Virus record (IMG/VR): IMGVR_UViG_3300011270_000003
Span: 1 to 51,669 of that record
Source: a virus
Strand: one strand, 5' to 3'
DNA: 51,669 bases
Shown here: piece by piece, positions 1,645 to 51,669 of the stretch
Position numbering within the stretch: the stretch's first letter is position 1
Layout: the number at the start of each line of letters is the position of its first letter
Translations under genes and position numbers: made by a program
Notes under the pieces: model-generated
What the model saw: only the letters and a program-made list of their open reading frames with translations
Database searches by the model: none
Told to the model about the DNA's origin: nothing

Positions 1645-1808
1645 TGAAGTACAGAGTACATATTGAATATGAAGTACCTATGTTTGCTGAAGTAGATGTA
1701 GATGGTTATCATGTAGATGACGCAGCTAAGTTAGCTATTAAAGAATTCGAGGACAATAATCCAGAGGCTCTTGAAGCTACGGTAGTTCGAGTTGAAGAAC
1801 TCCGATAA
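1644..1808 (+). CDS. Small hypothetical protein, 54 aa
   Basis: A short ORF starts at ATG 1644, touching the TAA of the previous gene (TAATG), and its own TAA overlaps the next ATG the same way. AGGAGA lies at 1630-1635. The product is acidic (KYRVHIEYEVPMFAEVDVDG, then a helix DDAAKLAIKEFED and a final strand), suggesting a small beta-alpha-beta fold. It resembles small uncharacterised phage proteins of the replication block. No function can be assigned. Confidence 0.7.
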   Translation: MKYRVHIEYEVPMFAEVDVDGYHVDDAAKLAIKEFEDNNPEALEATVVRVEELR

Positions 1809-2323
1809 TGGCTACTGATAACGTTTACCTACAGGGTAAAGCTAAATGGGTTAGAGTTTCTGTACCAGACATGTACGGTAAGTATGCTATGGTACTTTAT
1901 CCTAACGAAGAGTCTTTAAATAAGATCAAGAAATTGAAGGAGATTAAGACTGTAAACGGAAAACAATATGAAGGTATTAAGAATAGATTAAGACGAGATG
2001 AAGATGGAGATAGTATGTCTTTCTCTTGTCCTTCAGAGAAGATGGTCAAAGGTGTACGTAGATTATATGCTGCACCTATGATACTTGATGAAAACAATCT
2101 ACCGATAAGTACTGGCGTAGGTAATGGTTCTGAAGTTACTATTAAATTAGAAACCTATAGTTACAATCCTCCTGGTAATAAGATGGGAGGAACAGCAGCT
2201 AGGTTAGTTTCTGTTAGAGTAGATAAATTAGTCCCTTACGATCCGAAGATATCGGATAATTTGAGAGACCCGAAGGAAATCAGAGGCTTCAATAAGGTGC
2301 CTGCTGATAACCCTTTATTCTAG
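1808..2323 (+). CDS. Probable single-stranded DNA-binding protein
   Basis: The 171-aa product fits the small SSB-like family found in the replication blocks of podoviruses (DUF2815/gp2.5-like role). It opens with YLQGKAKWVRVSVPDMYGKY, then VLYPNEESLNKI, a polar KNRLRRDEDGDSMSFSCP stretch, and ends GNGSEVTIKLETYSYNP followed by an AARLVSVRVDKLVPYDP strand, consistent with an OB-fold. Such proteins coat unwound DNA and help the polymerase and recombinases. Its place directly after DNA polymerase supports this. The acidic C-terminal tail typical of T7 gp2.5 is not obvious here. Assignment is by family resemblance, not by a diagnostic catalytic motif. Confidence 0.65.
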   Translation: MATDNVYLQGKAKWVRVSVPDMYGKYAMVLYPNEESLNKIKKLKEIKTVNGKQYEGIKNRLRRDEDGDSMSFSCPSEKMVKGVRRLYAAPMILDENNLPISTGVGNGSEVTIKLETYSYNPPGNKMGGTAARLVSVRVDKLVPYDPKISDNLRDPKEIRGFNKVPADNPLF

Positions 2324-3172: not shown

Positions 3173-3480
3173 ACGAGAAATTCTATGCTGCAATCAACAT
3201 TAAAACACCTAGTATTAAAGACTCAACAGGTATTCCTGGAAACTGTAAAGCAACGTTAGCAGATATTCATGCATACGCAGCTAAACAGTTGTCATCAGAT
3301 CATCTCATTACTAAGGTGATGATTTGTGAAGTAATTGAAGTAGTAGAACGAGCTTCTCCTCCAATTACTATTCGACCTGCAGTCGAAAGAGCTACAGATA
3401 ATACTGGCAGAGAATGGCCAGCAGATCAATCCGAGAAGAGTGAAACCTCCACTACCGATAGGGACTATTCCCACGGATGA
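3169..3480 (+). CDS. Hypothetical protein, 103 aa
   Basis: The start at ATG 3169 overlaps the previous stop. Residues 1-65 form an alpha/beta region containing CKATLADIHAYAAKQLSSDH and a strand MICEVIEVVE. The last 40 residues are polar and disordered. The ribosome binding site is weak, so translation probably depends on coupling. It is the last gene before the 1-kb gene-free structured segment. I recognise no family. Confidence 0.6.
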   Translation: MNEKFYAAINIKTPSIKDSTGIPGNCKATLADIHAYAAKQLSSDHLITKVMICEVIEVVERASPPITIRPAVERATDNTGREWPADQSEKSETSTTDRDYSHG

Positions 3481-4487
3481 GGATAAATGATCTCTTTCGT
3501 GATAAGCGATCCTATGTGAAAGATGTACGGAAGGGTCTGGGTACAGAGGCAAGCATCTGCCAGGTAGTAACGTACTAGTCATTCGGACAGCATAGTCGGA
3601 GCGCTAAGCAGGCCCGTGTATCCTTACATGGAGGCTAAAACATAAGGAAGTAGGACTGAACCGATATCAAATCTAGTCCTCCGGTGACAGACGTGATCAG
3701 TCAGCTTAGTCTCTACAACCAGGATATCAGGATCAGAGTCCAATCTGATGAGACGGCAAAGGATTAGTGGAATATCCGTAGTCATCTATCTAATAGATAG
3801 AGAAACAAAAGCAGGACTAATATTAGTATCCTAAGGAGATGTGTAACTCCTTACAGTAACTCAGACTTAATTGGTATAAATAGAAGGTTCAAATCCTTCC
3901 TGAGTGAAAGTACGATCTAGTATTAGGACAAGTAGGATCTAAACCTTGATATGGCCACGGTGGCAGACAAACAACGGTACGCTCATGAGGACACCAGATA
4001 GGTGTCGAACTCGGAATTGGTTTAGAGCGAGTACCATGTGATCGGATGCGCTGGATTGCAACTCCAGAGATGTTGTAAGACCGAACAACCTGTGGTCTGT
4101 ATTCAACAAGGATGTTGATCTGAAAAGACTGAGCAATAGCATCATTAACTAAGTAGACACTCTTCTGAAGAGTTGATCTTAGACTGTTTGACTAGCGCTT
4201 CCATTAGGCGTGAAAATGTCATCTGGAATGATGTCTCAGTATCGAAGACTCTACAGAGATCGCCGATCTGTGATGAACAGATGAATGATCTAAAGAGATG
4301 CAGTGGTTAAGTACACTGGTATAACCGGGGACTGGGAAACGAACCAGCCGGAACGCCCGTTATAAAACTACTCAACGGGAGTAAACCTGGAACAAACACA
4401 TCAGACCTCTCGATGTAGAGAAATAAGAACCAAGGTCTCGACGGTTGTCTACCGTAGGGAGACTTCTAGAGTCTCATGTCCGAGACT
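3481..4487 (+). ncRNA. Candidate large structured noncoding RNA (about 1 kb)
   Basis: No credible protein is coded here on either strand, but the DNA is crowded with perfect hairpins. Examples: 3493-3498/3518-3523, 3525-3529/3571-3575, 3548-3551/3558-3561, 3614-3620/3625-3631 (7 bp, loop UCCU), 3652-3657/3675-3680, 3732-3737/3744-3749, 3990-3995/4001-4006, 4103-4108/4113-4118, 4257-4261/4265-4269, 4301-4305/4314-4318, 4356-4361/4374-4379, 4435-4439/4459-4463 enclosing 4442-4445/4451-4454, and 4470-4475/4482-4487. A tRNA-shaped element sits at 3859-3905. Large ornate RNAs of the GOLLD and ROOL classes occur in phage genomes, often near tRNAs, and this segment has that character. I cannot show that it belongs to either class. 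Transcription is probably read-through from the rightward operon, as I see no strong promoter at its start. The ends are approximate. Confidence 0.6.
3859..3905 (+). ncRNA. tRNA-like element lacking an anticodon arm
   Basis: The acceptor-like stem is ACTCAG 3859-3864 with CTGAGT 3900-3905 (6 bp). A D-like arm follows (TTA 3867-3869 with TAA 3877-3879, loop ATTGGTA including the conserved GG). Then comes a three-base linker ATA (3880-3882), and a textbook T arm (GAAGG 3883-3887, loop TTCAAAT, CCTTC 3895-3899). The whole anticodon arm and variable loop are missing. It is embedded in the structured segment and cannot decode. It may be a structural module or a processing signal for RNase P or RNase Z. 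Confidence 0.65.
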
Positions 4488-4508
4488 TTAACTAATGGAG
4501 GTGCAATC

Positions 4509-4553
4509 GTGTTACATGATGTGCACTCTGGACAAATCAAACAACCGCCTTAA
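4509..4553 (+). CDS. Possible leader peptide, 14 aa
   Basis: A GTG at 4509 is preceded by GGAGG (4497-4501) at ideal spacing, and opens a 15-codon frame ending at TAA 4553 (MLHDVHSGQIKQPP). It is followed 4 bases later by a 7-bp GC-rich hairpin and then by the ribosome binding site of the next gene. The arrangement recalls attenuator leaders. A ribosome stalling at the terminal Pro-Pro-stop is conceivable, but this is inference. Confidence 0.35.
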   Translation: MLHDVHSGQIKQPP

Positions 4554-4556
4554 GTT

Positions 4557-4576
4557 TGGGGGCACATATGCCCCCG
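4557..4576 (+). promoter_or_regulatory. GC hairpin between leader peptide and membrane protein gene
   Basis: GGGGGCA 4558-4564 pairs perfectly with TGCCCCC 4569-4575 around loop CATA. No T-run follows, so it is not a standard terminator. It lies 27 bases before the ATG at 4603 and could modulate translation or mark an RNA cleavage site. Confidence 0.55.
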
Positions 4577-4602
4577 TTAGTCCATTTATAATGGAGGTTA
4601 CA

Positions 4603-4860
4603 ATGTATCATGGATACCCTCCTTTCGGACCTCAATCCAACCCTCTGGCAGATTTAAGAGCTGCCATAGACTACTACAAAGGTTTAGAAAAGGAGTTGAA
4701 GGATCAGAATAAGAAACCAGAACCACCTAAGAAGAAGGATAAGTGGTTGGAAGTAGCACAGACATTTGTAACAATGGCTGCATTCGCTCCAATCGTAGGT
4801 TTTGGACAACTAATATTATACTTACAACTTGCACATCAAGTAAAAGGAATGATACCATAA
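4603..4860 (+). CDS. Small membrane-anchored protein, 85 aa
   Basis: ATG 4603 is chosen because GGAGG lies at 4593-4597. An upstream in-frame ATG at 4495 has no ribosome binding site and would read through the hairpin. The N-terminus is Pro/Gly-rich (MYHGYPPFGPQSNPL). A charged helix follows (LRAAIDYYKGLEKELKDQNKK), then a Lys/Pro linker and a hydrophobic segment (FVTMAAFAPIVGFGQLILYL) near the C-terminus, so the protein is probably tail-anchored in the inner membrane. The stop overlaps the presumed ATA start of the nuclease gene. Function unknown. Confidence 0.65.
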   Translation: MYHGYPPFGPQSNPLADLRAAIDYYKGLEKELKDQNKKPEPPKKKDKWLEVAQTFVTMAAFAPIVGFGQLILYLQLAHQVKGMIP

Positions 4861-5714
4861 AAACAATCTATACTCTGGTTACCGATATACAGTATTTATT
4901 GACGACCAGAGGCTGGTTCACAGATGAGCTAGCCCTGGATTTATCTAATAACATAACCAAAAGATTACAATCTCAATATAACGATATCGATAAACCATCT
5001 TTAAGAATGTCTAAACTAGGACCTGTCTGTCCTAAAGCTTTATGGCATTCGATACATACACCAGAGTTAGCCGAGCCTCTACCACCATGGGCAGAGTTCA
5101 AATACTCCTTTGGACATATAATAGAGGCTCAGGCTATATCTCTTGCCAAAGCTTCAGGACATACAGTTACGGGAGAGCAGGATGAACTTGTTCTCGATGA
5201 TATCCGCGGTCATAGAGACTGCATTATCGACGGCTACATTGTTGATGTTAAATCTTCCTCTAGCCGTGGGATGGACAAATTCAAAAGGAAATATCAAACA
5301 ACGCTTGACGATTGGGGCTATCTATCTCAACTTGACGCTTATATGGGCGCTAGTGCTAACGACGATCTGGTATTGGTAAAAGACACAGCATATATATTAG
5401 CTATTGACAAACAATTAGGACACATGGTATTATATGAACATTCATTTAGAAAAGAGCATATCCATCAAAGGATTAGATCGTGCAAAGAAACAATTGGACT
5501 TAGCAGAGCTCCGTCTTGTACATGTGGAATATTACCTGAGGGAAAGTCAGGCAATTATAAACTCGATGTTAAAGCTAGCTACAGTCAATACAAACACTGT
5601 TGTTTCCCAAGACTACGAACTTTCCTCTACTCAGATGGACCAAGATACCTTAGTCACGTAGAAAGGAAACCTGATGTCATCGAGATTAACAGAACTGGAC
5701 AAGTCATACACTGA
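4857..5714 (+). CDS. PD-(D/E)XK nuclease, Cas4/RecB-like
   Basis: The 285-aa product has the RecB-family nuclease core: GHIIEAQ (Gly86, His87, Glu90), GHRDCIIDG with Asp121, then VDVKSSSS with Asp130 and Lys132. Cys58 in LGPVCPKALW, and a C-terminal SCTCG plus YKHCCFP, give a Cys set like the iron-sulfur ligands of Cas4/AddB-type exonucleases. It probably acts on DNA ends in recombination or host DNA breakdown. No ATG, GTG or TTG occurs before the conserved N-terminus. The likely start is ATA at 4857, overlapping the previous TAA (ATAA) with AAAAGG 4842-4847 upstream, giving MKTIYTLVTD, a typical beginning for the family as I recall it. CTG or TTG codons further in remain possible but would trim the N-terminus. 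Confidence 0.8.
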   Translation: MKTIYTLVTDIQYLLTTRGWFTDELALDLSNNITKRLQSQYNDIDKPSLRMSKLGPVCPKALWHSIHTPELAEPLPPWAEFKYSFGHIIEAQAISLAKASGHTVTGEQDELVLDDIRGHRDCIIDGYIVDVKSSSSRGMDKFKRKYQTTLDDWGYLSQLDAYMGASANDDLVLVKDTAYILAIDKQLGHMVLYEHSFRKEHIHQRIRSCKETIGLSRAPSCTCGILPEGKSGNYKLDVKASYSQYKHCCFPRLRTFLYSDGPRYLSHVERKPDVIEINRTGQVIH

Positions 5715-7755: not shown

Positions 7756-9879
7756 TTATTTCAATTTACTTAACCTCTCTGCAGCTTCTCTAGCATTCTT
7801 AGTCATAGTTCTCATTTCATTTGGCCGTAACTGACTTTTATAATTTCGAACTGTTCCTACGCCTAATCCAAAATAATCTGCAATCTCTTCTACACTTTTT
7901 CCTGAGTCTAACATTTTAGTAAATTCTCCTTGACGACTACCAATAGAAGCCATAGCAGGAGAAGTATCTATTTTATTACCTTTCTCATCAAAGATAAGTT
8001 GATAAGATCTAGGTATATCTTCTGTCTTTGTAGCAAGAGATACACGTCTTTCTAACTCAGACATACCTGCTCTCTTCTGAGTATTTCTAGCTTCTACTTC
8101 CGATGCTAATTGTCTATATATTCTTTCTTTAGGAGATTCTGTAACTCCTTCCTTACGCATTCTAGCTGCGAATGCTTTTACAAATGATGCAGGAGCATCA
8201 GAAGGAACATTGAAAGCAAACCCTTCTTTGTTCTGAACCCAGTGTTGTAATTCATGAAGAATAGCGTCATGAACTTCTGTAGCATCTATAAGATTTTTAT
8301 TTAATTTAATAGTATTTTGACCACTCATAAATCTAGCTTCTGTAGTATCACTTACAAGATTTCTTTCAACTTTTATATTTTTAGCTTCTGGATATACTTT
8401 ATAAAATTCAGGATGATCTAATACATCGCCTAGTTTGGCTATATTCCAACTACTCTTATTTTTAAAAGCATTTAAATTTACAGAAGAAGGTAAATCACTA
8501 ACTTCTTGTCTAAGCATTCCTTCAGCACCATGTTCTACTCCAGTCAAAACTTTAACTTCTCCAGGAGATAAACCTTGTTTAAGAAGACCCTGAGCATATA
8601 ACTTCTTACCTAGAGAAGGAGCTACAAACATTCCTAAAGTATTAGGAATTGGACGAGCGGGAGTATTAAGCATTGAAGTAAAATCAAATAACTTAGGAGC
8701 TATTGTTTCAATCTCTTCATCTGTCAAAGCACCTTCATGACCTCTATCTGAGATCATTTTAAGAGCTCCCATTAAATTTTGAGCACCACGTAATAACGGT
8801 TCACCGATTGTTCTTACCGGAGATGTTCCAATAGCTTCACCAGCTCTTGTTGCCATTCCTTCCTGTCTACTACCACGATAATTACTTATATCTTTTCCAG
8901 TTCTTTCTGTATAACTCAGATGTCCTGTTACACCTGGTTTAACAGCTTCACGTTGACGTCTAGCTGCTTGTTCAAATGGATCAGACATAATAGTACTATC
9001 AGGTTCCATAGTCATCTTACGTACAGAACCTGGTTGGTCTGTATCTTCAAACAACTTAGATAGATCTAGACTAGGATTATCTTGTCCAGTCTTCTCCCAA
9101 CCTTCTAAAGAACTCTCGACCATATGGTGGGTAACTATACCTAACTTCTTATCTTTGTTAGCTAAGATCGCTTCTCTGATACCTTCGAATGCTCTGTCTT
9201 TAAATTGATTATATGATTCTCCACCAGGCACTACTTCATCTGGTTTCTTTTCTGCATAGTTCTGCAGAATATCATTATTACCTTCACAAGGTTTACCTTC
9301 GAAATTACCTACATTCCAAGTCTTTAATTTATCACTTATCGTGATAGGTATTCCAAGCTCTTTACCGATGATCTGGGATGTCTCTTTAGCTCTAGCTAGG
9401 GGAGATGATACCAGAGCCTCTAAACCTTTACCACGGAGCTCCTCAGCAGCTTCTAGGGCATGTTTACGGCCTTCGGCGCTTAACTTAACATCATCATTAG
9501 TTCCACGAATCTTGTCTTCTTCATTCTCTTCCGTAGTACCATGACGTATAATATGGATATCTTTAGGTTCTTCTAAATGTGTTTTATAACCTAGAACATT
9601 ACCTTTTTGTTTATCTGTAGCTCTTTGTAAAACATCAGACATCCCTTCTGCATAAAAAGGATATTCATTACGTCTATCTTCAACTTCACCCTGAAGATTA
9701 AAATCCAGACTTTCTTTATTTAATTTACCAGGTAAACCTGCATAATAATCATTTGGACTAATTTGGTAGACATCTGTCTTAGGATCATAATTAGGACTTT
9801 GAATTAATTTATGACTGTCTGCGACAGCTTCATATTCATTATCAAACCAACGACCATCACCGTAAGAAATACCCATCAT
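7756..9879 (-). CDS. Polyvalent internal virion protein: phosphatase + zincin-like + HTH
   Basis: This 707-aa protein carries three recognisable parts. Residues about 107-260 form a histidine phosphatase (phosphoglycerate mutase-like) domain, with IIRHGTTEENE (catalytic His113), SSPLARAKETSQIIG and VTHHMV (His251/His252). Residues about 485-610 resemble the zincin-like domain of phage polyvalent proteins: HPEFYKVYPEAKNI, a HELQHWVQNKEGFAF site (His542, Glu543, His546), and a downstream SEVEARNTQKR with a possible third ligand Glu. Residues about 655-685 (SGKSVEEIADYFGLGVGTVR) form a helix-turn-helix. It is the last gene of the leftward late operon, after three internal virion proteins, so it is probably packaged and injected with the DNA. 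Substrates are unknown. ATG 9879 overlaps the previous stop. Confidence 0.75.
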   Translation of the reverse strand: MMGISYGDGRWFDNEYEAVADSHKLIQSPNYDPKTDVYQISPNDYYAGLPGKLNKESLDFNLQGEVEDRRNEYPFYAEGMSDVLQRATDKQKGNVLGYKTHLEEPKDIHIIRHGTTEENEEDKIRGTNDDVKLSAEGRKHALEAAEELRGKGLEALVSSPLARAKETSQIIGKELGIPITISDKLKTWNVGNFEGKPCEGNNDILQNYAEKKPDEVVPGGESYNQFKDRAFEGIREAILANKDKKLGIVTHHMVESSLEGWEKTGQDNPSLDLSKLFEDTDQPGSVRKMTMEPDSTIMSDPFEQAARRQREAVKPGVTGHLSYTERTGKDISNYRGSRQEGMATRAGEAIGTSPVRTIGEPLLRGAQNLMGALKMISDRGHEGALTDEEIETIAPKLFDFTSMLNTPARPIPNTLGMFVAPSLGKKLYAQGLLKQGLSPGEVKVLTGVEHGAEGMLRQEVSDLPSSVNLNAFKNKSSWNIAKLGDVLDHPEFYKVYPEAKNIKVERNLVSDTTEARFMSGQNTIKLNKNLIDATEVHDAILHELQHWVQNKEGFAFNVPSDAPASFVKAFAARMRKEGVTESPKERIYRQLASEVEARNTQKRAGMSELERRVSLATKTEDIPRSYQLIFDEKGNKIDTSPAMASIGSRQGEFTKMLDSGKSVEEIADYFGLGVGTVRNYKSQLRPNEMRTMTKNAREAAERLSKLK

Positions 9880-38019: not shown

Positions 38020-38081
38020 ATTGATTAATATATCCTTTTATGTTATATTAAGTTTAATTAATACCTTGGCCAGGTCTTATC

Positions 38082-38110
38082 TCTATAACATACTTTAAAC
38101 CTAATGTCAA
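38082..38110 (-). promoter_or_regulatory. Late leftward promoter, sigma70 type
   Basis: Read leftward, TTGACA (38110-38105) and TATAGA (38087-38082) are separated by exactly 17 bases. It lies about 63 bases before the first ATG of the 30-kb late operon, with no other good candidate nearby. It would be served by the host polymerase. The AT-rich repeat region just upstream could hold activator sites. Confidence 0.7.
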
Positions 38111-38460
38111 GTTTTATTTTAATATATTATATAAAAAATACTCCGAGATATATTTTAGGTGTAATTCGTTGCTGCTTTGCCCACCCCCGACCCCCTATGG
38201 AGGGTTCGAAGAGGACTATCGATAGGATACTAATAGGATAATAATAGGATAATGGTAGGATACTTAGTAAGATCCTTATCTCGCTTAATATACCTTAATA
38301 TACTACGATAGTATACATACTAATATCCATTAAGTATCCTTATTAGTTACTATAATACTTAGTATACTATGAATATAATGTATACTATTAGTATCTTAAT
38401 GTCATAGATTAAGATTATTATGTATACACCGTAATATATGATTAGATATAACGATAGACA
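38111..38460. other. AT-rich noncoding region with repeats
   Basis: No gene is seen from 38020 to 38514. Besides the promoter and terminator, this stretch holds a GC patch of C-runs (about 38180-38196), the four-copy TAGGATA array (38223-38262), inverted GGATA copies near 38316-38341, and four GTATAC palindromes in very AT-rich DNA. Candidate roles are a replication origin or the control region for late transcription. Confidence 0.5.
38223..38262 (+). repeat. Iteron-like array, 4 x TAGGATA at 11-bp period
   Basis: TAGGATA begins at 38223, 38234, 38245 and 38256, exactly 11 bases apart, so each copy faces the same side of the helix. Just before it, AGGACTATCG (38213-38222) is the reverse complement of the last unit of the array at 40632-40660. 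Regular spacing suggests binding of a protein oligomer, as at iteron origins or cooperative operators. Confidence 0.65.
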
Positions 38461-38496
38461 ATAAAAAACCCCTAGATCATTTAAGACCTAGGGGTT
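38461..38496 (-). terminator. Rho-independent terminator of the leftward island
   Basis: Read leftward, AACCCCTAG (38496-38488) pairs with CTAGGGGTT (38475-38467), followed by TTTTT. It lies just after the stop of the 446-aa gene and separates the island from the late operon. Confidence 0.88.
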
Positions 38497-38514
38497 ATTA
38501 GTTTGGAGTAGAGA

Positions 38515-40460: not shown

Positions 40461-40575
40461 GTGCAAATAGTCCTTATCTATCAATGATTTAACATGATGT
40501 GCTGTTCTGTCGCACATAAGACTTATATCACATCCATTCATCTGTTCTCTGTTTGAGCGTTACCGCTGTAACGTA

Positions 40576-40622
40576 CAAACCATGAACAAGAGTTCAAACC
40601 ATGAACAGAGGTTGTGACAACC
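40576..40622. promoter_or_regulatory. Possible operators: direct repeat and palindrome
   Basis: CAAACCATGAACA occurs at 40576-40588 and again at 40595-40607, 19 bases apart. It is followed by the perfect palindrome GGTTGTGACAACC (40610-40622). They lie between the two divergent early promoters and are likely protein-binding sites. Confidence 0.5.
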
Positions 40623-40631
40623 ATAGGTTGA

Positions 40632-40677
40632 TAGTCCTATTATAGTCCTACGATAGTCCTCCTTCGCTTACGCGAAG
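40632..40677 (-). repeat. Iteron-like array, 3 x TAGTCCT at 11-bp period, plus hairpin
   Basis: TAGTCCT starts at 40632, 40643 and 40654. On the minus strand this reads AGGACTA, related to the TAGGATA units at 38223-38262, and in opposite orientation. A 6-bp hairpin CTTCGC/GCGAAG follows at 40662-40677. The rest of 40678-40884 holds AT-rich sequence with no gene that I can support. Confidence 0.6.
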
Positions 40678-40884
40678 TATGATAGGTCGCATTGGTTCGC
40701 ACGTCATGGTCAGACTATACACATATGTACTACGTACTACTTAATCTAAGCTAACTAAGAGACGTGGTTACTATATGTAGGTGTATATGCAGGGCTGTCT
40801 TATCTATATATAGTAAGAAATAAGGCTTGTCAAGCTTTATTTTACATATAATGTAATAAAAGTTAAGATAGTCGAGTCATAGCC

Positions 40885-40912
40885 TTGACTTAACTATTAG
40901 TTGTGTTACAAT
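40885..40912 (+). promoter_or_regulatory. Rightward early promoter 1
   Basis: TTGACT (40885-40890), 16 bases, TACAAT (40907-40912). The sequence TTGACTTAACTAT is repeated exactly at the promoter at 43353-43380, and both are followed by similar GGGA-AAGCAA starts. It drives the first rightward genes and the block through to DNA replication. Confidence 0.8.
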
Positions 40913-40958
40913 AGTCATACTGGGAAAGCAATTGCTACTCAGGAACATGGAGAGAAAG

Positions 40959-44422: not shown

Positions 44423-44499
44423 GCCCATATAGGCCAATCGGTAGAGTCAGGGGACTTAAAATCCCCACAGTGTCAGTTCGAGTCTGACTATGGGCACCA
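44423..44499 (+). tRNA. tRNA-Leu (UAA) with short variable arm, CCA encoded
   Basis: The acceptor is GCCCATA 44423-44429 with TATGGGC 44489-44495, then A and encoded CCA. The 3-bp D stem GGC/GTC with loop CAATCGGTAGA is the class II type and matches bacterial tRNA-Leu(UAA). The anticodon arm is GGGGA-CTTAAAA-TCCCC with anticodon UAA. The T arm is GTCAG-TTCGAGT-CTGAC. The variable region is only ACAGT, whereas cellular tRNA-Leu has a long extra arm. It reads UUA, a codon very common in this AT-rich phage. Confidence 0.9.
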
Positions 44500-50477: not shown

Positions 50478-50640
50478 CGTTATTGGACCTATTAATTCAA
50501 ATGATTGGTATACTATGCGACAATTACTTAGTGATGTTAAATGGATGAAGAACAGAGATTCTAATAAGTTTAAGTCTGCAATAGACAAGGAGAGTAATTA
50601 TTATAATAAATTAAAATCTCAATATGCAATTAATAATTGA
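50470..50640 (+). CDS. Small protein upstream of DNA polymerase, 56 aa
   Basis: ATG 50470 overlaps the previous gene, with AGGAGAAAG just upstream. The product (MSNVIGPINSNDWYTMRQLL, then SDVKWMKNRDSNKFKSAIDK) is helical. It overlaps the polymerase start by 17 bases, so polymerase translation is probably coupled to it. Function unknown. Confidence 0.6.
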   Translation: MSNVIGPINSNDWYTMRQLLSDVKWMKNRDSNKFKSAIDKESNYYNKLKSQYAINN

Positions 50641-51669
50641 TATTGAAGCAGATAAATTAGAAAATCCTACTAAGATATGGTGTGTCGTTCTAAAAGACAT
50701 AGCTACGGGGGAATATTATGTATTTAGAAATCTCCACGAAGATCAAACAGAAGTGGAGAAGTTTAAAGATTTGGTTAAAAAGTGTAAAAGATTGGTCGGT
50801 CACAACATTCTTGGTTATGATTACCCTGTCTTGTGTAATCTTATTCAGTTTTATGATTGCATTAATGTTACCGATATTATTGATACCTTTATTATTTCTA
50901 AGTTATGTAACTATTCGCGCAAGGGACATGGAATAGAAGATTACGGTCTTGAATTTAACTTACCTAAAGGAGAATTCAATGATTGGTCTAGACTTACTGA
51001 AGAAATGGTTACGTATTGTATTAGAGACGTCGATATCTGTGAGCGTATTTACCTTAGCTATCTTAGTGACATCGATAATCCTAAGTATAGGAATGCTATT
51101 ACTTGTGAACACAAGTTCCAAATCATTGCTAATTCTCTTCACGATAATGGGTTCTATTTTGATATTAAAAAGTGTAATAAACTACTTGAGAAAGTAACTT
51201 TAGAATTAAAGAATTTAGATGAAGATATACTTAAATCCTTTCCTCCTCATCTCACTTTAATTAGAGAGATTAATCCAGAGTTGACCAAACATGGGACTCT
51301 TCATAGAAAAGACTTCCGCTGGGTACAGAGTAACGATCTTTCGGAATACAATGGGGGATCTTTTTGTAGATGTATCTACCAAGAGTTCAATCCATCCTCA
51401 CATAGACAAATTGTGGATGTTCTTTCTAAGGCTGGCTGGAGACCAAGCGACAAAACCAAGACACACGTTGAAGCCAACAGACAAGGAATAGTTAGAGAAG
51501 ATCTTAGTAAATATGGGTGGAAGATCAATGAAGCGAATATCTCTTCACTTCCCAGTAGTGCTCCACAATCAGCTAGAACTCTGGCCAAGAGGATACTATT
51601 CGAAGCTAGACGTAGGACGCTCACCGAGTGGATTAAACTTTATGATCCCAATACCGGAAGAATTCACGG
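50624..51669 (+). CDS. DNA polymerase, family A (T7 gp5-like), N-terminal part
   Basis: ATG 50624 opens a frame that runs off the right end and continues at the left end (1-1093) once the 123-base overlap is removed. The N-terminal 3'-5' exonuclease is intact: Exo I DIEA (Asp6, Glu8), Exo II GHNILGYDYP (Asn61, Asp66), Exo III YCIRD (Tyr131, Asp135). This is a proofreading polymerase. The thioredoxin-binding loop of T7 is not evident. The ribosome binding site is weak; coupling to the overlapping 56-aa gene probably drives translation. Confidence 0.95.
   Translation, partial: MQLIIDIEADKLENPTKIWCVVLKDIATGEYYVFRNLHEDQTEVEKFKDLVKKCKRLVGHNILGYDYPVLCNLIQFYDCINVTDIIDTFIISKLCNYSRKGHGIEDYGLEFNLPKGEFNDWSRLTEEMVTYCIRDVDICERIYLSYLSDIDNPKYRNAITCEHKFQIIANSLHDNGFYFDIKKCNKLLEKVTLELKNLDEDILKSFPPHLTLIREINPELTKHGTLHRKDFRWVQSNDLSEYNGGSFCRCIYQEFNPSSHRQIVDVLSKAGWRPSDKTKTHVEANRQGIVREDLSKYGWKINEANISSLPSSAPQSARTLAKRILFEARRRTLTEWIKLYDPNTGRIH
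51547..51669. repeat. Right copy of 123-base terminal overlap
   Basis: Identical to bases 1-123. Circular closure at this overlap gives a 51,546-base molecule and a complete polymerase gene. Confidence 0.95.

Follow-up and report, generated by a model that had tools for sequence, protein, structure and literature searches.

GOLLD and ROOL, which form cages, are among the closest described counterparts of the RNA reported here, and tRNAs can sit in the linkers of GOLLD (PMC12286853). For the holding of a large RNA by the membrane protein encoded beside it, OLE RNA and its neighbour OapA offer a precedent (PMC11332333). In permuted tmRNA genes the parts run in the order T-arm, acceptor strand, loop, acceptor strand, D-arm, and permuted tRNA genes are found in algae and some archaea.

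We analysed the 51.7-kb IMG/VR virus record IMGVR_UViG_3300011270_000003 over its full length of 51,669 nucleotides (the window) and describe a segment, between genes for a gp2.5-like single-strand DNA binding protein (SSB) and a Cas4-like exonuclease (the nuclease), which very likely encodes a conserved, structured RNA (Table 1). Like GOLLD, this RNA is large, ornate, phage-borne, tRNA-linked and of unknown function (PMC12286853). It differs in that GOLLD is associated with whole tRNAs, whereas the present RNA instead carries degenerate or permuted tRNA modules, and in that GOLLD belongs to other host phages, whereas the present RNA has a fixed SSB-nuclease synteny. ROOL is likewise a large phage or prophage RNA found near tRNA islands, but the present RNA is longer and its motifs differ.

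Table 1 Features of the RNA locus in the window, with permuted-order tRNA-like modules from other phage records
Feature	Record	Positions	Strand	Remarks
gp2.5-like SSB	window	1808-2323	+	phrog_112, E = 1.4e-5; 5' synteny marker
Large structured noncoding RNA	window	3484-4593	+	alignment with L002-L005, consensus fold, covariation, no conserved frame
Hairpin A	window	3621-3648	+	conserved loop GGAGGCUAAAA on a fully covarying stem
Motif B	window	3680-3703	+	TCCGGTGRCAGACG; GAC/GTC in some members, GGC/GCC in others
Hairpin TAAGGAG/CTCCTTA	window	3832-3853	+	alignment columns 381-402; 6 of 7 pairs changed on both sides
Mini tRNA-like element	window	3859-3905	+	ACTCAG/CTGAGT stem, D-loop-like AATTGGTATAA, T-arm; normal order
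Perfect tRNA T-arm	window	3883-3899	+	GAAGG-TTCAAAT-CCTTC; the window's one T-arm match
Weak match to permuted tRNA model	window	3883-3984	+	T-arm through to D-arm-like TGGCAGACAAACAACGGTACGC
Anticodon-arm-like hairpin, then T-arm-like hairpin	window	4051-4089	+	CTGGA-TTGCAAC-TCCAG, then GTTGT-AAGACCGA-ACAAC; placed by eye, 7-nt loop
Hairpin with loop ending CATTA	window	4196-4210	+	CGCT-TCCATTA-GGCG, T-G closing pair; similar TCTCATTAG hairpins in 11 other members
3' motif and hairpin	window	4545-4575	+	CCGCCTTAAG at 4545-4554, GGGGGC/GCCCCC at 4558-4575; conserved in alignment
Small protein just 3' of the RNA	window	4603-4860	+	lysine-rich middle, one C-terminal hydrophobic helix
Cas4-like exonuclease	window	4857-5714	+	phrog_1990, E = 1.3e-20; 3' synteny marker
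Permuted-order module	L128	5089-5136	-	
Permuted-order module	L126	10499-10541	-	
Permuted-order module	L132	2049-2102	-	
Permuted-order module	L153	2953-3007	+	
Permuted-order module	L162	4356-4399	+	
Permuted-order module	L112	781-820	-	

Comparison of the window with Rfam 15 gave no match above threshold in the segment, the sole family match being a tRNA-Leu at 44423, and eight homologous loci gave none. The GOLLD model, which covers the conserved 3' region (RF02032, threshold 150 bits), had no match above cutoff in the window or 38 related records, where its best match had E = 0.11 and lay outside the region. ROOL (RF03087, 99.1 bits) had no match in the same set; control genomes were also silent, and the sensitivity of that model was not shown. 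The alpha-tmRNA model (RF01849, 50 bits) was not met, with a best E of 1.76 elsewhere and a positive Caulobacter control, and no group II intron was recognized by RF01998 or, in the window, by the whole of Rfam. Nor was a tRNA (29 bits, with anticodon arm and CCA end) recognized, the best match within the gaps of the clade reaching 27.2 bits (L050). The proposal in the sequence-only reading that the RNA might be a member of GOLLD or ROOL therefore failed for want of a match above cutoff, and its alternative of a new class stands. No description of this RNA, or of permuted tRNA domains within a phage RNA, was found in the open-access PubMed Central literature searched. The RNA belongs to the loose kind of large ornate phage RNAs and to no catalogued family, the permuted tRNA modules being what distinguishes it.

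No ORF of at least 100 aa covers positions 3481-4494, the interval from the stop codon at 3480 to the start codon (ATG) at 4603 has no credible gene, and stops number 20-37 per forward frame in the window copy and 19-32 in four close homologues (L002-L005). A protein-coding reading was rejected on these stops, present in all frames, and on the lack of any ORF in common among the homologues. The conserved stretch extends beyond position 4487 to about 4593 and takes in the 3' hairpin; the ends of the RNA were inferred from conservation and the flanking genes and were not mapped. Folding of the + strand beat dinucleotide shuffles (z = -4.1, with 0 of 20 as low), compared with z = -1.9 for the - strand. 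A sigma-70 promoter scan gave no match above the shuffled mean, and ARAGORN detected no complete tRNA in the segment.

Conserved structure was shown with the four close homologues, whose copies of the segment are 75-84% identical in nucleotide sequence and differ by indels of every length. Folding the five-sequence alignment gave a consensus of -235 kcal/mol, compared with -119 to -155 kcal/mol in 30 column shuffles that preserved column type, gaps and local composition, and 50 base pairs were compensated, compared with 7-19 in the shuffles. The hairpin at 3832-3853 was nearly wholly replaced through compensatory changes in L003 and L004. The reverse complement of the alignment also folded well (-200.5 kcal/mol, 46 compensated pairs), as expected because the helices consist of Watson-Crick pairs, and the forward strand was the better of the two. 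The nuclease gene of the same five phages, used as a control, folded below its shuffles and had no excess of compensated pairs (5 vs 2-18). MAFFT alignments of divergent RNAs are imperfect, and the loci are metagenomic assemblies. The earlier claim of a gene-free segment at 3481-4487 held, with no supportable protein and a conserved stretch that reaches further, and covariation, strand asymmetry, motifs in common and synteny across the clade all support the claim of a large ornate structured RNA. The feared outcome of homologues with conserved frames and no covariation did not materialize, given the stops in all frames and the 50 compensated pairs.

Distant homologues were reached through an exact scan for one conserved 16-mer, which led to divergent contigs with longer stretches in common and the same neighbour genes, and a search with an alignment of the nuclease gave 80 loci. 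The distance from SSB to nuclease was 1497-4172 nt (median 2327) in 50 non-redundant loci, compared with 30-683 nt outside the clade (18 loci), and in the nuclease tree the long-gap loci formed one side of a branch with 100/100 support. Gap length is an upper limit for the RNA because the longer gaps are partly small ORFs, which are also found in the upstream part of the larger gaps. The cultured Zobellviridae-type relatives phiM6, CRP-4, CRP-13 and T5S1 have a small SSB-nuclease gap without such an RNA. Synteny was also shown by a synteny-blind search of all viral contigs for a T-arm + D-arm pattern, which recovered a new member, L186, with its module between SSB and nuclease and relatives of the polymerase, SSB and nuclease around it. 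Matches to this pattern were mostly tandem tRNA genes in large phages and were therefore filtered by acceptor pairing. An RNA-less relative, L102, has a genuine tRNA-Arg (TCT) at 4903-4979 in the same gap, a hint of a possible origin of the large RNA by growth around a tRNA locus.

Short motifs are common to these gaps. Hairpin A had 20 matches, all in gaps and none in flanks, and in a 16-row alignment its stem gave a covariation score of 0.692, compared with 0.11-0.25 when slid. Motif B, searched with a relaxed pattern, was present in 17-18 loci with all 18 matches in an SSB-nuclease gap, and a pattern scan added three further contigs. By eye, the variable purine of motif B tracks a later pyrimidine nearly always (GAC with GTC, GGC with GCC), L063 being an exception. 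Both hairpin A and motif B occur in the window and so link its copy to the distant members; with hairpin A and/or motif B between SSB and nuclease and a T-arm on the coding strand (3883-3899), the window fulfils two criteria of the class, whereas the permuted cloverleaf module is strong in many members and weak in the window. In the 3' hairpin one pair was compensated to give GGGGGG/CCCCCC, and the commonest k-mers of the gaps were strand-specific. Further hairpin motifs, common to the gaps of L029, L043, L047, L070, L073, L075 and others, were CGCCAGATTAGCG, GGTCTCATTAGCC and, near the 3' end, CCACCTTAAG. A pairing of GGAGG in hairpin A with CCTCC before motif B fits the window and not all members, and is not claimed. 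The patterns for hairpin A, motif B and the T-arm were chosen after viewing the same gaps; the safeguards on the counts were flanks, reverse strand, shuffles and the independent member L186.

The tRNA-like character of the RNA was examined in the window copy and across the clade. The mini tRNA-like element has a 6-bp acceptor-like stem and a perfect T-arm without an anticodon arm, and the Rfam tRNA model scored 15.5 bits at 3858-3907, below its cutoff of 29. It is present in the window and L002, enlarged in L005 and absent from L003 and L004. The weak permuted-model match at 3883-3984 (17.1 bits, E = 1.5e-4) has 2 of its 5 acceptor pairs non-standard and could at best be a derived or decayed permuted module, a weak trace. 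Other members have equivalents of the hairpin pair at 4051-4089, with 25 occurrences in gaps and a single one in flanks. Perfect T-arms (5 bp, loop TTCRANN) numbered 61 on the + strand of 134 kb of gaps and none on the - strand; neither strand of the 386 kb of flanks had any, and there was no more than one in each of 20 shuffles. The tRNA-shaped fold noticed at the outset thus held, at 3859-3905, without an anticodon arm and below the tRNA cutoff, and the guessed tRNA association proved stronger than stated, with tRNA parts built into the RNA and recurring across the clade.

In 12 loci a T-arm was followed directly by a hairpin and then by TGGYG(A)AA...GG...CRC, corresponding to U8 and the D-arm of a tRNA, an arrangement with no occurrence in the controls. 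Sequence preceding the T-arm pairs with sequence following the D-arm in an 8-9 bp helix in L044, L051, L072, L029, L059 and L066, and in L044, L072 and L029 this helix begins about one base past the D-arm, like an anticodon stem after base 26. The parts therefore run anticodon-stem strand, T-arm, acceptor strand, cap, acceptor strand, U8, D-arm, anticodon-stem strand. Many members thus carry a cloverleaf in circular permutation, its acceptor stem capped, that is attached to the RNA through the anticodon stem. Across ten aligned permuted copies 99.2% of cells were paired and the covariation score was 0.629, compared with 0.04-0.10 when slid; the T-arm and acceptor helices are favoured in this score because the copies were picked by those pairings, and selection for the D-arm was by sequence alone. 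The covariance model built on these copies matched L066, L053, L063, L055, L023, L064 and L074, all outside the training set and on the forward strand, with E values between 1e-12 and 8e-9; T-arms of genuine tRNAs are among its weaker matches.

The two-piece (permuted) alphaproteobacterial tmRNA (RF01849) has the same part order as the phage module, but the phage acceptor ends are capped by loops as short as 2-6 nt and a single RNA has several tRNA modules. The permuted tRNA genes known from algae and some archaea share the permuted order of tRNA halves. They yield functional tRNAs, whereas the phage module has neither an anticodon loop nor room for CCA and, unlike them, joins the rest of the large RNA at its anticodon-stem position. 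The order T-arm, closed acceptor hairpin, D-arm was also observed in other, apparently unrelated and partly larger phages (Table 1), where neither Rfam nor ARAGORN, where run, called a tRNA at the modules of L128, L126, L132, L153, L162 and L112. In L128 a 6-bp helix, GGGACC/GGTCCC, occupies the anticodon-stem position. These may possibly be free-standing permuted tRNA-like genes.

The protein encoded just 3' of the RNA had no Pfam or PHROG match. Its co-occurrence with the RNA was shown by a mechanical ORF test within 4.3 kb upstream of the nuclease: a lysine-rich, membrane-helix ORF was present near the RNA in 50 of 53 RNA-bearing loci and in 1 of 26 RNA-less loci. The same test over an equal length downstream of the nuclease was positive in 11 RNA-bearing loci. 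Because the comparison is a single phylogenetic contrast (clade vs outgroup), the co-occurrence may reflect common descent only. The arrangement resembles OLE/OapA in that a large RNA is encoded beside a co-occurring membrane-protein gene (PMC11332333), but OapA is a four-helix CNNM-like protein, the phage neighbour is small and lysine-rich with one hydrophobic helix and no binding shown, and OLE is absent from the Rfam matches of the phage RNA.

The genome carries a T7-like replication module (DNA polymerase A fragments, primase/helicase, gp2.5-like SSB and Cas4-like exonuclease). Parts of a family A DNA polymerase lie at both ends of the record (2-1093 and 50624-51667), and this seeming split suggests a circularly permuted, near-complete genome. 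The closest cultured relatives of the nuclease, at no more than 39% identity, include Zobellviridae phages and Sinorhizobium phage phiM6, and a DNA similarity search against sequenced phages gave just a 34-nt chance match. The phages with the RNA are uncultured, podovirus-like soil phages whose closest cultured kin by nuclease are of Zobellviridae type. An alphaproteobacterial host is possible, inferred and not shown; no relatives of the nuclease were found in the bacterial and archaeal genomes searched, which leaves the phages without a link to a host or prophage. By ARAGORN and Rfam, the sole tRNA gene of the window is a complete tRNA-Leu(TAA) with encoded CCA at 44423-44499, and full-length tRNAs also occur elsewhere in the genomes of related phages. 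Two more stretches, 38020-38514 (495 nt) and 40493-40931 (439 nt), have no ORF of at least 50 aa. At 7756-9879 (-), beside tail/structural genes, a 707-aa protein contains a histidine phosphatase domain (PF00300, E = 3e-32), an unusual combination.

We propose that an RNA of about 1.1 kb would be made during infection and would work in trans, as an RNA or RNA-protein particle. Its body would be the conserved helices, and tRNA-shaped modules would hang off it: a mini tRNA, hairpins resembling an anticodon arm and a T-arm and, in many members, a permuted cloverleaf whose acceptor is capped. Having the tRNA elbow but no free CCA end, the modules would therefore not be chargeable. They would probably dock tRNA-binding factors (the ribosome, RNase P, tRNA enzymes or tRNA-attacking defence proteins), or alternatively may be rigid tertiary joints, and the lysine-rich protein may hold the particle at the inner membrane. 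That the RNA acts in trans as a separate molecule is an inference towards which we lean slightly; its transcription as an RNA of its own is likewise inferred. Whether the modules mimic tRNA towards a host factor and are not joints only is inferred, with function untested, and we see the evidence as balanced. Tethering by the basic membrane protein is inferred without binding or membrane data, and we rather doubt it. Taken whole, a new RNA class acting in trans, with modules that dock factors and a protein that tethers, is as likely to be wrong as right. Against this explanation, there are no expression data and the segment, on the same strand and between genes, could be part of a longer mRNA; further, the window copy retains only a weak trace of the permuted module and no promoter was found.

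The rival that we hold to be a real possibility is a cis-acting intercistronic region in an early or middle polycistronic mRNA that sets processing, stability or translation of the membrane-protein and nuclease genes, the tRNA-like pieces being processing or stability elements. It is favoured by the constant position of the segment on the same strand directly upstream of the same genes, by the conserved 3' hairpin near the ribosome binding site and by the lack of a clear promoter. However, a leader would not need such a size, so many independently conserved modules or capped acceptors, and a capped acceptor stem lacks the usual 5' leader and 3' trailer on which RNase P and RNase Z would act. 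We regard as unlikely an RNA nanocage or scaffold like GOLLD and ROOL, a homo-oligomer of many copies with tRNA elbows as architectural joints only. The size, phage setting and tRNA link resemble those of GOLLD and ROOL, which are cage-forming (PMC12286853), but there is no sequence or covariance-model relation to either, and RNA length varies greatly among members where a symmetric cage would constrain it.

A DNA-level element, such as an origin of replication or a site of recombination or packaging with hairpins that work in single-stranded form, would suit the position in a replication/recombination module between SSB and exonuclease genes. We consider it very improbable: T-arm loops occur on one strand only, the + strand folds better, and U8, the G18-G19 loop and the one-base N26 spacing would be useless in DNA. 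A graveyard of decaying tRNA genes could account for tRNA-like parts and has the real tRNA-Arg of L102 at the same intergenic spot in its favour, but it is contradicted by covariation, the helices being kept through compensatory changes, and decay alone cannot produce a permuted order; this rival is practically ruled out. Returning to the trans-acting RNA, a bolder version, which we think unlikely, would see a membrane-tethered RNA machine displaying arrays of uncharged tRNA mimics, permuted cloverleaves included. In this version the mimics would capture or mislead host tRNA machinery or tRNA-attacking defences while the basic single-helix protein holds the machine. If true, viruses would have an RNA-based effector of a new kind.

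Few bacterial or phage RNAs of such size and complexity have been described, and what GOLLD and ROOL do is still an open question. The present RNA adds a family of about 50 divergent members that occupy a fixed locus, come with a candidate protein partner and contain one interpretable part in the tRNA elbow, and its function is therefore testable. It is also an example of a phage RNA into which circularly permuted tRNA domains have been built.
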